Counted from the stretch's first letter, positions 1 to 14,075 are shown. The stretch is 64,000 bases of DNA from Spirochaetales bacterium (GCA_016934415.1 JAFGSW010000036.1:27571-91570), one strand, 5' to 3'. The notes: generated by a model not told the origin, from the letters alone. Program-made: numbers and translations.

Positions 1-817
1 CGAGCGCGACGATTGCGTCGAGGCGCGCGTGCGCAACCTCGCCGCCGGAGCGATCGAAACCTTCCGCGCGCGCTACCTCGCGGGCTGCGACGGGATGCAC
101 AGCGCCGTGCGTGAATCCGCCGGACTGCGCTTCAGGGGCGGCATCTATCCCGTATCCTTCTGCATGGCGGACTATACCGATCGCACCGGCTGGGGGGACG
201 AAGCGCATTTCTTCTTCACCGAGCGCGGCCTGCTCGAATCGTTTCCCCTGCCCGGCGGACGGCGCCGCTGGAACGTGAGCCGCCGGCCTCATGGCCCGAC
301 CGAGGCGGAAAATTTTCTCGCGCGCGAGGTGCGGCGGCGCTGCGGCATCGGCCTGAAGCCCGCCGACCGGGTCTTTCAGGCATTCTATCGCGTTTACCAT
401 TACCGGGTCGAACGGTATTATCGGGGCCGGGTGCTGCTCGCCGGGGACGCCGCGCACATCATGTCGCCCATCGGCGGACAGGGCATGAACACGGGCTTCG
501 CGGACGCGGAGGCCGCGGCCCTCCTCCTGACGCGCGACGCGAACGGGGAAAAGGCATTCGACGTCTACCATGCCTGCCGTTCGACGGCCGCCCGCGCCGC
601 GCGCAGGAGAGCCGCATTGGCGATGCTGGCGGGAACGCTGCGCGGTCGTTTTTTTTCGGCTCTGCGCAACTCGCTGCTTTGGATTTTCCTGCGCGCACTA
701 TCAAAAAAAATTCCCGGGTATTGTACCATGTTGACCATACCCTGGGCCGATCCGGCGATTCGGTATAGAGACAGAATTGGAAGGACCGCCGGCGGAAAGC
801 CGGAGCACTCAAAATGA
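1..817 (+). CDS. FAD-dependent monooxygenase (UbiH/PHBH-like), 5' end truncated by window edge
   Basis: ORF contains YLAGCDGMHSAVRESAG and GRVLLAGDAAHIMSPIGGQGMNTGFADA, the GD motifs of flavoprotein aromatic hydroxylases; reading frame is open to the window edge. Confidence 0.85.
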   Translation, partial: ERDDCVEARVRNLAAGAIETFRARYLAGCDGMHSAVRESAGLRFRGGIYPVSFCMADYTDRTGWGDEAHFFFTERGLLESFPLPGGRRRWNVSRRPHGPTEAENFLAREVRRRCGIGLKPADRVFQAFYRVYHYRVERYYRGRVLLAGDAAHIMSPIGGQGMNTGFADAEAAALLLTRDANGEKAFDVYHACRSTAARAARRRAALAMLAGTLRGRFFSALRNSLLWIFLRALSKKIPGYCTMLTIPWADPAIRYRDRIGRTAGGKPEHSK

Positions 818-1896
818 TGGACGAAGAAAATACACCCGTTCTCCGGAGAATCGCCACGGCGGTACCGCCGCAAACGTACTCGCAGGAATTCTGCCTCGCG
901 CTCATGCTCGATCGCTACGCCGATGATCCGCGCGCGCACGCATTGCTTTCGAAGATCTATTCCGTCTCGGGAATCGCCGAAAGGCATTCCGTCATTACGG
1001 ATCCGGGCGATTTCCTAACTGTACCGGACCGTCTCACCACCCAGTCTCGTAATGATATCTTTATTACCGAGGCCAACCGCCTTGCCTGCCTCGCCTGTGC
1101 CGAACTCTTCACGGAGCCTTCTTTGGCGGCGAAGATTACTCACCTCATCACCGTCAGCTGCACCGGATTTTCGATTCCGGGTTTCGGTGCGGAAGTGATC
1201 AGGGAGCTTGAGCTCCCGACGGCGGTGGAGCACTATCACCTCGGGTTCATGGGGTGCGCCGCCTCATTCCCGGCGCTCAAGCTCGCCCGGCATATCTGCC
1301 TGGCCCGGCCCGACGCGAGCGTTCTGATCGTTGCGGTCGAGTTGTGTTCCCTGCACGTGCGCAAGAGCCATCAGGCGGACGTGATCGTCGCCAACTCACT
1401 CTTCGCCGATGGGGCGGCGGCCGCCCTCGTGACCGCCCGAAGGGAGGATCATGACCGGTCCGGCCTGCTGCTCCATGACTTCCGCTCACGGACGCTGCCA
1501 CAACACGCGGGCACTATGGCTTGGAAGATCGGTGCCACCGGGTTCGACCTCTCTCTTTCGACCTACCTGCCGGCCATCATCGAGGGCGCTATCGGTCCAA
1601 TCATGGAGGAAATCATAAATGAAACCCGCGCCGAACGTGAAAAGATCGGGCTCTGGGCCGTGCATCCGGGTGGTCGAGCGATCCTCGATAAATTCGAATC
1701 GGCGCTGCGGCTCTCTCCCGCGGCCCTCGCGTATTCACGCGCGATCCTGCGCGACTACGGCAACATGAGCTCCGCCTCGATTTTGTTCGTGCTGAAAGAA
1801 ATCCTTGAAGCGCCCGTCGCGGGTTTCACGTGCGCCGCCGGTTTCGGGCCGGGTCTCGTGATTGAGACCGCCTTGATGGAAAAGACGGCTGGATGA
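814..1896 (+). CDS. Type III polyketide synthase (chalcone/alkylresorcinol/alkylpyrone synthase family)
   Basis: 360 aa; Cys-His-Asn triad visible: GFMGCAASF (Cys), WAVHPGGRAILD (His), YGNMSSASILFVL (Asn); ATGA overlap with upstream gene. Confidence 0.92.
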   Translation: MMDEENTPVLRRIATAVPPQTYSQEFCLALMLDRYADDPRAHALLSKIYSVSGIAERHSVITDPGDFLTVPDRLTTQSRNDIFITEANRLACLACAELFTEPSLAAKITHLITVSCTGFSIPGFGAEVIRELELPTAVEHYHLGFMGCAASFPALKLARHICLARPDASVLIVAVELCSLHVRKSHQADVIVANSLFADGAAAALVTARREDHDRSGLLLHDFRSRTLPQHAGTMAWKIGATGFDLSLSTYLPAIIEGAIGPIMEEIINETRAEREKIGLWAVHPGGRAILDKFESALRLSPAALAYSRAILRDYGNMSSASILFVLKEILEAPVAGFTCAAGFGPGLVIETALMEKTAG

Positions 1897-2627
1897 AAAT
1901 GTCCCGCTCGTTTCCGCGCGAACGTTCCCGCGAGCGCGAGCTGATGGATTCCTTCTCTTCGGATCCCGATCGGCTCAAGCGCACGCTCGATCAATTCTAT
2001 GTAGTCAACCTGCTCCTTACCCGCGCCCGCGGCCTTTTGGAGCGCTGGTTCATATCCGATATGGCGCGCGATAAAAGCCTCGCCTACACCCTGCTCGACC
2101 TCGGCTCGGGCGGCGGCGATCTCGCGGTCTGGCTCACGCGTCGCGCGAGAAAGCTCGGCGTGAAGCTTCACATCGTCTGCCTGGACCACGATCCTAGGGT
2201 CACGGCGTACGCCCGGGAACGCTGTCGCGCCTTTCCCGAAATCGAAGTGGTCCAAGGACGCGCGTTATACCTCTCCTCTCTGCCGAGCTTCGACTATGTC
2301 TTCGCCAACCACTTTCTTCATCACCTGGCCGATGAAGAGATCGTCGGAGTGATCGAGACGATCGGCGCGCGCACGCGCCGCCGATTTCTCGTTTCCGATC
2401 TCAAACGCTCGCGGCCGGCCTACTTCGCTTATTCCGTTTTCGCGGCCATTTTTTTACGTAACAGCTTTTCGTTCGAGGACGGCCGGCTTTCGATACGGAA
2501 AGGTTTTACAAAAGCGGAATTAGAGGAAATTGTGGCGCTCAGCCGCCTGCGGGATCGCGTGACGCTGCGTTCGATGTTTCCCTTCCGGGTCGTCATTTTA
2601 GGCGCCGACGCGCGCCATCGTGCCTGA
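1893..2627 (+). CDS. Class I SAM-dependent methyltransferase
   Basis: LLDLGSGGGDLAVWL SAM motif I, FANHFLHHL; ATGA overlap with type III PKS stop. Confidence 0.85.
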   Translation: MKMSRSFPRERSRERELMDSFSSDPDRLKRTLDQFYVVNLLLTRARGLLERWFISDMARDKSLAYTLLDLGSGGGDLAVWLTRRARKLGVKLHIVCLDHDPRVTAYARERCRAFPEIEVVQGRALYLSSLPSFDYVFANHFLHHLADEEIVGVIETIGARTRRRFLVSDLKRSRPAYFAYSVFAAIFLRNSFSFEDGRLSIRKGFTKAELEEIVALSRLRDRVTLRSMFPFRVVILGADARHRA

Positions 2628-2639
2628 TCACCGCTCCCC

Positions 2640-3530
2640 TCAGGCAAACAGGGCGGGCGCCAGTAATCGCGCGCCGATGAAGATCGCGAAAAACACGTTC
2701 AAGGCGGTGGATGATAAAAGGTTGAGGCGCATCGCGTGATCGTAATCGGCCTTGGCCGGGTCGCGAAAGGCGATCGCCATCCAATGAAAGAAAAAAACGG
2801 CGGGCACGGCGAGAAAACCGAGAAAAAGCCCCGCCGAAACCAGTCCGGAGAAATGCCAAAGATACGCGAAAAACCCGGCCAGTGAAAAAGCCAGAATGAT
2901 CGCGGAAAATATAAACGTGCCCCTGATTCCGAGAACCAGGCTCAAGGTGAGGTCGCCGCGCTTGCCGTCCTCCTCGTGCTGGTAAATCTGCGTCATGGGA
3001 TAAAAGGAGAAGAGGAAAACAACGGCCAACAGCGCCCCCCACAACGCTTTTACGGTCAACGGCAAAAGCGAAGGCGCCGCCTCCACCCCATACAAAGTCA
3101 TGAGAAAACCCATTCCGCCGGGGACGAGGGCCGTACCGAGAAGGCCGGTCAACGGGTATTTTTTCAAGCGCAGCTTGTCCCAGGAATACGCCTTGGAGCA
3201 CAGGCCGTAAATGAAAACGGAGAGCGAGAATTCCCAGCCGATCAGGAATCCCAAGCCCACGGCCGCGGCGTCCAGGAGGAGCGATATCGGGAGCAGGTCC
3301 TTGTGCACCCGCGGCGGCCGCTTGACCCCGCCGATGCTGTCGGTGTCCCGGTCGTAATATGAATTGAACGAATTGGAGGCCGGATAGAGCAGAAAGTGCA
3401 AAATGAAAAAGACGAGCAGGGCTTTCCAGAGCACGGGCTGTTGCGCCGCGCACAGCCCGAACAGGTATACGGGTAAAAGAAAATACGAAAAAGGAACACG
3501 GAGCAATACGAGTGTCGAGCGAGAAATCAT
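2640..3530 (-). CDS. UbiA-family prenyltransferase
   Basis: NSFNSYYDRDTDSIGG matches the NxxxDxxxD-type UbiA motif; multiple hydrophobic segments; start set at MISRSTLVLLRVPFSYF. Confidence 0.85.
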   Translation of the reverse strand: MISRSTLVLLRVPFSYFLLPVYLFGLCAAQQPVLWKALLVFFILHFLLYPASNSFNSYYDRDTDSIGGVKRPPRVHKDLLPISLLLDAAAVGLGFLIGWEFSLSVFIYGLCSKAYSWDKLRLKKYPLTGLLGTALVPGGMGFLMTLYGVEAAPSLLPLTVKALWGALLAVVFLFSFYPMTQIYQHEEDGKRGDLTLSLVLGIRGTFIFSAIILAFSLAGFFAYLWHFSGLVSAGLFLGFLAVPAVFFFHWMAIAFRDPAKADYDHAMRLNLLSSTALNVFFAIFIGARLLAPALFA

Positions 3531-11269: not shown

Positions 11270-13156
11270 ATGATCTTCAACAGACGAAAAATCGAGTCGC
11301 AGCTCGGCCGACGGTTGGCGCTGTGCGTCCTTTTCCCAGCTACCCTCGTCCTGTTTCCGCCGCTCGTCACGCAGGAAAAAACCGTTCCGGCCGACGGCGC
11401 CAGCCTCATCGCGGGTGGAATCGAAGCCTTCCGGCCGGGCGGGACATCCGGCAAGGACGCGGCGGTCGAGACGGTCGCCGTCGTCGGACAGCCGTTCACG
11501 CGGGCGCTCCGCGTCCGGACCAGGGCGAAACCGAAGAACGATTGGGACCTGCAGGCTCAGGCAAAAACCGCGATCGCCGTAAAGCGCGACGACACCGCAC
11601 TCGCGATCATCTGGGCGCGCGCCGTGGCAACGAGCGATGAAATGGGCGAAGCCACGCTCACGTTCGTATTCGAGCGGGCCGGGGATCCGTACACCAAGTC
11701 GGTCCAGTATCAAATGAAACTCAATAGGGACTGGCGGCGCTTTCTCATACCGTTTGCCGTCCGGGAAAGCTATCCCGCGGGCGGCGCGCAATGCAATCTC
11801 AAATACGGATATCTCCCCCAAACCATCGAAATCGGCGGAGTGGAAGTGCTGACCTTCGGCCGGGCGGTGCCGCTCGAGGACCTTCCCAAGACAATCATCA
11901 GGGTTCGCTACCAAGGGCGTGAGCCGGACGCGCCCTGGCGGAAAGCGGCGGCCGAAAGGATCGAACGCTATCGGAAAGCCGATCTCACCGTCGTCGTGCG
12001 CGACCGGCGCGGCCGGCCCGTGGCGAACGCCGCGATCGCGGTCGCCATGCAGCGCCACGCCTATGATTTCGGTGCGGCCGTCACGGCCCGGATGCTCACC
12101 GGCGAAAACGAAGACAGCCGCCGCTACCGCACCATCGTCGAGGAAAACTTCAATAAAGTGGTGTTCGAAAACGATCTGAAAATCGGTCCCTGGGAAGCCG
12201 GTAAGAAATCGGCCCCGACCGCGAACTTCAACATGTCGAATACGATGCGGGCCCTCGCCTGGTGCCGGGAACGCGGCATCCTCGTCCGCGGCCACACCCT
12301 GCTCTGGGGACCTCTCGACAAGCGGTTCTACCTGAAAGCGCTGGGCTTCGACATCGACGGCGGCGACTGGGAAAGGATGAAGGGGCTCCTCCTCGCGCAC
12401 CTCGAGCAAAAAGCCGAAGCGACGAGAGAGTACGTCTCCGAATGGGACGTCATCAACCACCCCGTGGCGACCTGGGGCGACAAAGGCCGCACCTGGGAGA
12501 CCGTGCTCGGCCGCGGCTTTTACGCCGACGTCCTCCATCGGGCCCGGGCGCTCAATCCCGGCCAGCTCCTCTACATCAACGAGGGCTCGGATTTTCCGGG
12601 CGACGATGAAGGCGTGAGGGCCGCCTACGAAGGACTCATCCGGGATCTCAACGCCGCCAAGGCGCCGCTGGACGGCATAGGCTTCATGAGTCACTTCGGC
12701 GAATCGTCGCTCACCGGGATGGATTCGGTCTGGAGGCTCATCGAACGCTACGCGAAGTTCGGACTGAAACTCCAGTCGACCGAGCTCGACGTCGGGACCG
12801 GCGGGGACGAGGAAGGCCAGGCCGATTACTACCGCGACTTCATGACGGTGTTCTTCAGCCACCCGGCCACCGTCGGCATCGTTCTGTGGGGGTTCTGGGA
12901 AGGAAGTCACTGGAAGCCCGATCGCGCCCTCTGGCGGAAAAATTGGGAGATAAAGCCCTGCGGCCGGGTTTGGCTCGACCTCGTCAAGAACCGGTGGTGG
13001 ACAAACGCGGCCGGAAAAACCGGCGCGGCCGGAACCTTCGAAACCCGCGGATTCCTCGGTGATTATGAAATTACCGTGACCGCGGGAGGCAAAAAAAAGA
13101 ACGCGCGGTTGAATCTCGAGGCCGGAGACGTAAAACGGGAAATCATCATCGACTGA
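11270..13156 (+). CDS. GH10-like (endo-1,4-beta-xylanase family) protein with N-terminal beta-rich domain
   Basis: RGHTLLWGP, WDVINHP, LLYINEGS, QSTELDV: GH10 landmarks, with the acid/base Glu position read as His. Confidence 0.8.
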   Translation: MIFNRRKIESQLGRRLALCVLFPATLVLFPPLVTQEKTVPADGASLIAGGIEAFRPGGTSGKDAAVETVAVVGQPFTRALRVRTRAKPKNDWDLQAQAKTAIAVKRDDTALAIIWARAVATSDEMGEATLTFVFERAGDPYTKSVQYQMKLNRDWRRFLIPFAVRESYPAGGAQCNLKYGYLPQTIEIGGVEVLTFGRAVPLEDLPKTIIRVRYQGREPDAPWRKAAAERIERYRKADLTVVVRDRRGRPVANAAIAVAMQRHAYDFGAAVTARMLTGENEDSRRYRTIVEENFNKVVFENDLKIGPWEAGKKSAPTANFNMSNTMRALAWCRERGILVRGHTLLWGPLDKRFYLKALGFDIDGGDWERMKGLLLAHLEQKAEATREYVSEWDVINHPVATWGDKGRTWETVLGRGFYADVLHRARALNPGQLLYINEGSDFPGDDEGVRAAYEGLIRDLNAAKAPLDGIGFMSHFGESSLTGMDSVWRLIERYAKFGLKLQSTELDVGTGGDEEGQADYYRDFMTVFFSHPATVGIVLWGFWEGSHWKPDRALWRKNWEIKPCGRVWLDLVKNRWWTNAAGKTGAAGTFETRGFLGDYEITVTAGGKKKNARLNLEAGDVKREIIID

Positions 13157-13514: not shown

Positions 13515-14075
13515 ATGAAAAAACTGGTTGTTTGCCGCGTTTGCGGCTACGTCATGGAAGAAGGCAAAGTCGGAGACCGGTGCCCGGCCTGCGGCGTGCC
13601 GGCCACGGCTTTCCAGGAGTACACCCCTGTTATGAAGCCCAAACGCGAATTATGGTTGAGTTTCGATGTCCATCCGGTGCTCGTTCATTTCCCCGTGGCG
13701 TTTACGGTCGCCACACTCGTTCTTTCGGTGATCTCCCTGCTGTTCACCGGTACCGCCCGCGGCCAACTCGACGCCGCCGTCCTCGTTTTGAGCGTCCTTC
13801 TGCCCTTCACCGTGATCGTGAGCGCGGCCGCCGGGATCGTCGACGGAAAAGTGCGGTTTAAAAGGATCAACACGCCGCTCCTCGTCCGAAAGATCATCCT
13901 CGGCGTCGTATTCCTCTCCTTCTCGGCGGCCATGATCGTGCTGATACTGGTCTCAGGACTCGGCCCGGCCGGTGTTTTGATCGCGTTTCTGCTATGCAAC
14001 GCAGGAGCTCTGGTCTGCGCGATCATCCTCGGCCTGATCGGGAGATCGATCGCCTGCGCGCGAACCCCCGGCTGA
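13515..14075 (+). CDS. Rubredoxin-like metal-ribbon domain fused to DUF2231-like membrane domain
   Basis: CRVCGYVMEEGKVGDRCPACGVP (2x CxxC) followed by FDVHPVLVHFPVAFTVATLVLSVIS and several TM segments. Confidence 0.8.
   Translation: MKKLVVCRVCGYVMEEGKVGDRCPACGVPATAFQEYTPVMKPKRELWLSFDVHPVLVHFPVAFTVATLVLSVISLLFTGTARGQLDAAVLVLSVLLPFTVIVSAAAGIVDGKVRFKRINTPLLVRKIILGVVFLSFSAAMIVLILVSGLGPAGVLIAFLLCNAGALVCAIILGLIGRSIACARTPG

Follow-up and report, generated by a model that had tools for sequence, protein, structure and literature searches.

A conserved type III polyketide synthase operon of spirochaetes that may direct synthesis of a lipid quinone, next to a UbiA-family gene whose relatives lie in cytochrome bd operons

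We have analyzed a 64,000-nucleotide stretch of DNA (hereafter, the window) from Spirochaetales bacterium (GCA_016934415.1 JAFGSW010000036.1:27571-91570; G000:C59:27571-91570 in our numbering), which is part of a 4.06 Mb draft genome. The host falls in the class Spirochaetia, as Borrelia turicatae and B. anserina, recognized by 100% plasmid matches, are among the genomes of its class. At the left end of the window lie overlapping genes for a flavin adenine dinucleotide (FAD)-dependent monooxygenase (FMO), a type III polyketide synthase (PKS) and a class I S-adenosylmethionine (SAM)-dependent methyltransferase (MT), which are met by a convergent gene for a UbiA-family prenyltransferase. The FMO-PKS-MT trio is conserved in Spirochaetota, and genes of the rare UbiA subgroup are otherwise linked to those of cytochrome bd. 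Our tentative reading, taken as a whole, is that the operon formed by the trio may make a lipid quinone that is prenylated by UbiA and serves as a membrane redox carrier. The features at the center of this reading are listed below; the 46 loci mentioned there resulted from a search for the PKS in 60 relatives, 395 genomes of the phylum and 398 genomes of the class.

1..817, + strand: FAD-dependent monooxygenase (UbiH/PHBH-like, PF01494; Pfam), C-terminal two thirds; a homologue adjoins the PKS at 35 of the 46 loci
814..1896, + strand: type III polyketide synthase, 360 amino acids (aa), triad C116/H284/N317, W281 (Pfam, alignment)
1893..2627, + strand: class I SAM-dependent methyltransferase, 244 aa (Pfam); a homologue adjoins the PKS at 43 of the 46 loci
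2640..3530, - strand: UbiA-family prenyltransferase of a rare subgroup with other members in ubiA-cydA-cydB operons; 296 aa from ATG

A preliminary description of this DNA, made from the sequence alone, had reported ATGA overlaps between FMO and PKS (814-817) and between PKS and MT (1893-1896), as well as a convergent UbiA-family gene. All of these were confirmed, with 12 base pairs (bp) separating the MT stop codon, which ends at 2627, from the UbiA stop codon, which starts at 2640. The UbiA reading frame can be extended to 3614, beyond the ATG at 3530. The FMO frame, bases 2 to 817, runs off the left window edge, and leftward extension within the same contig completed FMO as the first gene of the operon, giving the order FMO-PKS-MT. 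The full protein has 414 aa (L002:9144-10388; 428 bp of the 5′ part are outside the window), and the GAGATG, DG and GD motifs can be read in it. Further to the left, genes for a lipoprotein-like protein and a diguanylate cyclase and clpX/clpP/tig were found, with no pathway gene among them.

The FMO scored 110 bits against PF01494 (FAD_binding_3), and the PKS scored above the cut-offs for PF00195 and PF02797 (chalcone/stilbene synthase N and C domains). The Cys-His-Asn triad, noted in the preliminary description, is invariant in all 52 aligned PKS rows. Trp281, located three residues ahead of the catalytic His, is present in 50 rows of the same alignment, which did not include ArsB. In ArsB, Trp281, as opposed to Gly in ArsC, has been tied to resorcinol as opposed to pyrone cyclisation (PMC9927152). 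Since PKS18, a pyrone synthase of solved structure, likewise has Trp three residues before its catalytic His, Trp281 is consistent with resorcinol formation but not diagnostic of it. The closest PKS model, DpgA (NF042429), was uninformative, with Deinococcus and Roseomonas PKSs scoring alike against it, and an AlphaFold model of the PKS built with three sequences (mean pLDDT 41) gave no usable view of the acyl tunnel. The nearest NCBIfam model of the MT was PRK06202, at 176 bits, under the cut-off of 243. The class I type of the MT had been seen as a distinguishing feature of the locus; it is not one, since operons of the Deinococcus type have a homologous class I MT. The UbiA-family protein matches PF01040 and contains the aspartate motif N56-x3-D60-x-D62 and a second motif, QIYQHEED. 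Its best NCBIfam scores were 44.8 bits for PRK12884 (cut-off 269), 32 for BchG (212) and 20 for CtaB (210); thus, judged by profile scores, no curated cut-off is reached and the protein is not recognizable as MenA, UbiA or haem O synthase.

Both FMO and MT homologues are found beside the PKS at 34 of the 46 loci. Because contig ends truncate some of the loci, all counts of genes around the PKS are lower bounds. The order and coupling of the trio are kept across many Spirochaetota families, and dozens of further genomes also have the three genes together, from which we conclude that these are real. The same family-level groups were recovered in the PKS, FMO and MT trees, which indicates that the trio was inherited as a unit. 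Homologous trios, in which PKS, MT and FMO all match, are also carried by Deinococcus plasmids, at 42% (PKS), 36-37% (FMO) and 32-34% (MT) identity to the window proteins. The joint logic of PKS, methyltransferase and flavin hydroxylase that the preliminary description had proposed is thus well borne out. The window PKS, FMO and MT themselves are long or unplaced branches with no firm position in the trees.

At 35 of the 46 loci, a divergent UbiE-like methyltransferase gene, which the preliminary description had overlooked, is located between FMO and PKS; all four genes are present at 28 loci. The product is of the type that C-methylates quinol rings (126 bits against PF01209, plus matches to MenG/UbiE models). 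There is no such gene in the cluster of the window genome, which has a weak match only elsewhere, and genomes G364 and G427, introduced below, have none or a weak match. An NADH-dehydrogenase-like flavoprotein gene joins seven loci, at the cluster end in six and upstream of FMO in G132; among the cluster-end copies, those at L021:8129-9277, L022:5137-6282 and L180:4937-6070, from two families, are nearest to TIGR03169, below cut-off. In G458, the FMO start overlaps nosD, and two nosL-like genes are located upstream.

Several other observations were made at the PKS loci. In G364, genes for phytoene desaturase-like, phytoene synthase and lycopene cyclase proteins follow FMO-PKS-MT on the same strand (L077:2932-8972). 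Genes for an acyl carrier protein (ACP) and a beta-ketoacyl synthase are found within the PKS clusters of G111 (L072:7988-9630) and G074 (L074:4240-5906), where they perhaps supply a special acyl starter. A stand-alone PKS from Candidatus Heimdallarchaeota metagenome-assembled genomes (L018:1360-2499) is placed inside the spirochaete clade and reflects either transfer or a binning error.

Orthologues of the window UbiA are rare, and the connection of this family with cytochrome bd had also been overlooked. None was detected in the 60 relatives or in plasmid records. In the phylum sample, 2 of 394 other genomes have one (G364 and G427), and in the class sample, 4 of 397 (G364, G427, G458 and G464), all from one family; the two that were aligned are 42-44% identical to the window protein. 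In all four genomes the gene is located directly upstream of cydA, with a spacing of 19-32 bp in the three that could be read fully, and in G364, G427 and G458 the operon starts with ubiA-cydA-cydB-rbx. These same three genomes contain the PKS, unlinked to ubiA; it was not seen in G464, which is 80% complete. With the window genome left out, co-occurrence of UbiA and PKS gives a hypergeometric p of 0.0005 in the phylum sample and 0.004 in the class sample, uncorrected for kinship. A homologue of the fourth operon gene is present in the window:

13515..14075, + strand: rubredoxin-like and DUF2231-like membrane protein; homologues are the fourth gene of ubiA-cydAB operons

A gene of this kind adjoins FMO in the PKS cluster of G020, the window copy being 36-38% identical, and its association with UbiA-cyd and PKS loci appears tentative from such comparisons. 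A family 10 glycosyl hydrolase (xylanase-type) is encoded near the locus, at 11270-13156. Taken together, the nosD/nosL, cydAB and rbx contexts point to respiration, and we regard this gene-context link of the operon to respiration as suggestive.

The following scheme can be proposed, in which all the reactions, the starter unit, prenylation and a part in respiration are inferred from protein families. The PKS would condense malonyl units on a fatty acyl starter to yield an alkylresorcinol-type ring, the MT would methylate the ring on carbon or oxygen, and the FMO would hydroxylate it with O2 and NAD(P)H, giving a hydroquinone/quinone by polyketide quinone logic. UbiA would act in the same redox-lipid pathway, most likely transferring an isoprenoid group onto the hydroquinone. 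In a lineage that synthesizes neither menaquinone nor ubiquinone, the product would then carry electrons in the membrane. The trio probably yields a methylated, hydroxylated alkylresorcinol or quinone. Whether its product is a redox carrier we consider evenly balanced, and it is possible, if somewhat doubtful, that UbiA acts on that product.

The known quinone pathways bear on this scheme. No match to MqnC was found in the window genome or in any PKS-clade genome tested, and none to MenB over cut-off in the same genomes, except for G078, whose PKS is stand-alone; strong MqnC matches are present in genomes that have only distant PKSs. A 2014 survey listed no quinone for Spirochaetes and found futalosine-pathway enzymes in about 6 of 22 genomes (PMC3914697). 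Literature searches on methyl-plastoquinone synthesis and on quinones of Spirochaeta turned up nothing of use. To the left of the window, a 184-aa menA-like fragment (G000:C59:1333-1887) covers only positions 123-267 of the MenA profile and, by this match, looks like a decayed prenyltransferase gene. MqnP-like UbiA proteins are encoded in G030 (L028) and in G055. In the latter, an MqnL-type decarboxylase (641 bits, cut-off 496), the MqnP-like UbiA and UbiX are encoded beside an ABC importer (L124:4409-7329), with no MqnC.

Several points weigh against a respiratory quinone made by the trio and UbiA. The preliminary description had suggested looking for co-conservation of all four window genes, which holds for the trio and fails for UbiA. 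Its gene adjoins the PKS at 1 of the 46 loci only, the window locus, where the two lie on opposite strands; as it is next to none of the other 45, UbiA was rejected as a conserved cluster member. Of the two things that were said to speak against a role for UbiA, lack of conservation with the operon is thus found, while identity as an ordinary quinone or haem enzyme is not what the profile scores suggest. CydA (cytochrome bd subunit I) was not found in the window genome, where other quinol users were not searched for, so that we can point to no known quinol oxidase user in that genome. The genomes with both CydA and UbiA belong to one family, so that their counts are not independent and may equal one event. 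The grouping of the window PKS with this family is not firm (p-AU 0.063), and the trees neither support nor reject a recent event in which all four genes passed together between this family and the window genome. Absence of MenB and MqnC is probably common across the class, cluster-free genomes having been hardly sampled, and is therefore to be taken as background and not as a correlation. In G030 and G055 there is likely a salvage-type set for menaquinone precursors, as judged by gene content, so that lack of quinone cannot be assumed for all relatives. When planctomycete trios were expressed in Corynebacterium, methylated alkylresorcinols were obtained but no quinone (PMC10896814). Finally, the host is probably anaerobic or microaerobic although FMO needs O2.

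A serious, if rather doubtful, alternative is that the trio is an ordinary phenolic-lipid operon of the srs, hid or planctomycete kind, whose methylated alkylresorcinol or alkylquinone would serve the envelope or chemical defence, and that UbiA is an unrelated neighbor. UbiA is convergent, is not co-transcribed with the trio and adjoins the PKS at only 1 of the 46 loci; the distributions of the two are mostly separate (44 and 5, respectively, of 398 class genomes), and trios without UbiA exist in Deinococcus and other phyla. However, of the five class genomes with UbiA, four also have the PKS. Outside the window genome the UbiA family is linked to cydAB, and redox genes are repeatedly found next to the PKS cluster. 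We estimate chance adjacency of so rare a UbiA gene to the trio at roughly 1 in 1000-2000 genes.

It is unlikely that UbiA instead takes part in menaquinone-type salvage, prenylating an imported aromatic acid and feeding cytochrome bd, with the PKS operon being a separate lipid pathway. The relatives with UbiD(MqnL)-UbiA(MqnP)-UbiX beside an ABC importer and without MqnC make such a route conceivable, as does the decayed menA-like fragment that shares a contig with the window; yet the cyd-linked UbiA proteins are neither MenA- nor MqnP-like (PRK12884 is their best model, at 36-37 bits), no UbiD or UbiX gene adjoins cyd-linked ubiA at the loci read, and the window ubiA is located by the PKS rather than by cyd. 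We consider it very improbable that the PKS product is an alkylpyrone or a small aromatic acid instead of a resorcinol and that FMO, MT and UbiA convert it to a meroterpenoid secondary metabolite. The specificity of a type III PKS is not readable from sequence here, the pyrone synthase PKS18 shares the Trp, and carotenoid genes after MT in G364 and ACP and ketosynthase genes in the G074 and G111 clusters would suit such a product. Against it stand Trp281 itself, shared by nearly all relatives with resorcinol-forming ArsB where pyrone-forming ArsC has Gly (PMC9927152), and the FMO and UbiE-like methyltransferase, which are easier to reconcile with a phenol or quinol ring than with a pyrone.

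The quinone reading, in its widest form, would have a new respiratory quinone made by spirochaetes that synthesize neither menaquinone nor ubiquinone. Its ring would derive from a type III PKS, and it would be prenylated by a dedicated UbiA that one family encodes in the very cytochrome bd operon that the quinone feeds; this wider proposal we regard as doubtful. Some spirochaetes lack MenB and MqnC but have the quinol oxidase cytochrome bd, and a polyketide-derived quinone, if true, would explain what feeds it. It would also widen the range of respiratory polyketide quinones beyond actinobacteria, to a distant phylum, and it names a testable set of genes. The location of the UbiA relatives in front of cytochrome bd genes hints at an unrecognized respiratory quinone in bacteria that have none of the common quinones.

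The type of trio described here is already known and is widespread: srs, pkq, hid and planctomycete operons have been published (PMC9927152, PMC8086630, PMC10896814). srsABC of Streptomyces griseus and pkqABC of Mycobacterium and Streptomyces likewise combine a type III PKS, a methyltransferase and a flavin/oxidoreductase gene in one operon, and analogous operons give rise to polyketide quinones with a respiratory function in Mycobacterium and Streptomyces (PMC9927152). The spirochaete locus differs from them in its FMO-PKS-MT order, in the UbiA neighbor and, in many relatives, in the UbiE-like methyltransferase; its host lacks MenB and MqnC, whereas actinobacteria switch from menaquinone. The hidABC (cyanobacterial hierridin), planctomycete and Deinococcus operons contain the same three enzyme types and are tricistronic, and PKS and MT homologues with an annotated FAD enzyme were found in Roseomonas, Methylobacterium, Psychrobacter and Paludisphaera. 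Unlike in spirochaetes, no UbiE-like or NADH-dehydrogenase-like partner was seen at the hid, planctomycete and Deinococcus loci inspected.

UbiA, presented earlier as an additional component, is not without precedent. The agq cluster of Actinoplanes missouriensis makes alkyl-O-dihydrogeranyl-methoxyhydroquinones by prenylation and hydroxylation of type III PKS alkylresorcinols (PMC10896814, PMC3227686), and its AgqD resembles UbiA and O-prenylates an alkyl-methoxyhydroquinone (PMC3227686; PMC10896814). A prenyltransferase is also known in one hierridin-like cyanobacterial cluster (PMC8086630), clusters of the hid, planctomycete and Deinococcus type otherwise having none. Given AgqD, the chemistry of a trio joined by UbiA is not new. 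The agq system shares with ours a type III PKS and a UbiA-like prenyltransferase, a likeness drawn from the published description rather than from sequence; it belongs to another phylum, whereas the spirochaete UbiA gene is convergent and outside the operon and has relatives in cytochrome bd operons. With UbiA, MenA and MqnP of ubiquinone and menaquinone synthesis, the window UbiA has the PF01040 fold and the aspartate motif in common, but it is far under all curated cut-offs, and its relatives are located upstream of cydAB. We found no paper on such a PKS/UbiA/cytochrome bd setting in the open-access literature. It is rather the context that appears to be new, with spirochaetes that do not synthesize menaquinone, a UbiE-like partner in most clusters, and a UbiA subgroup that spans a PKS locus and cytochrome bd operons.

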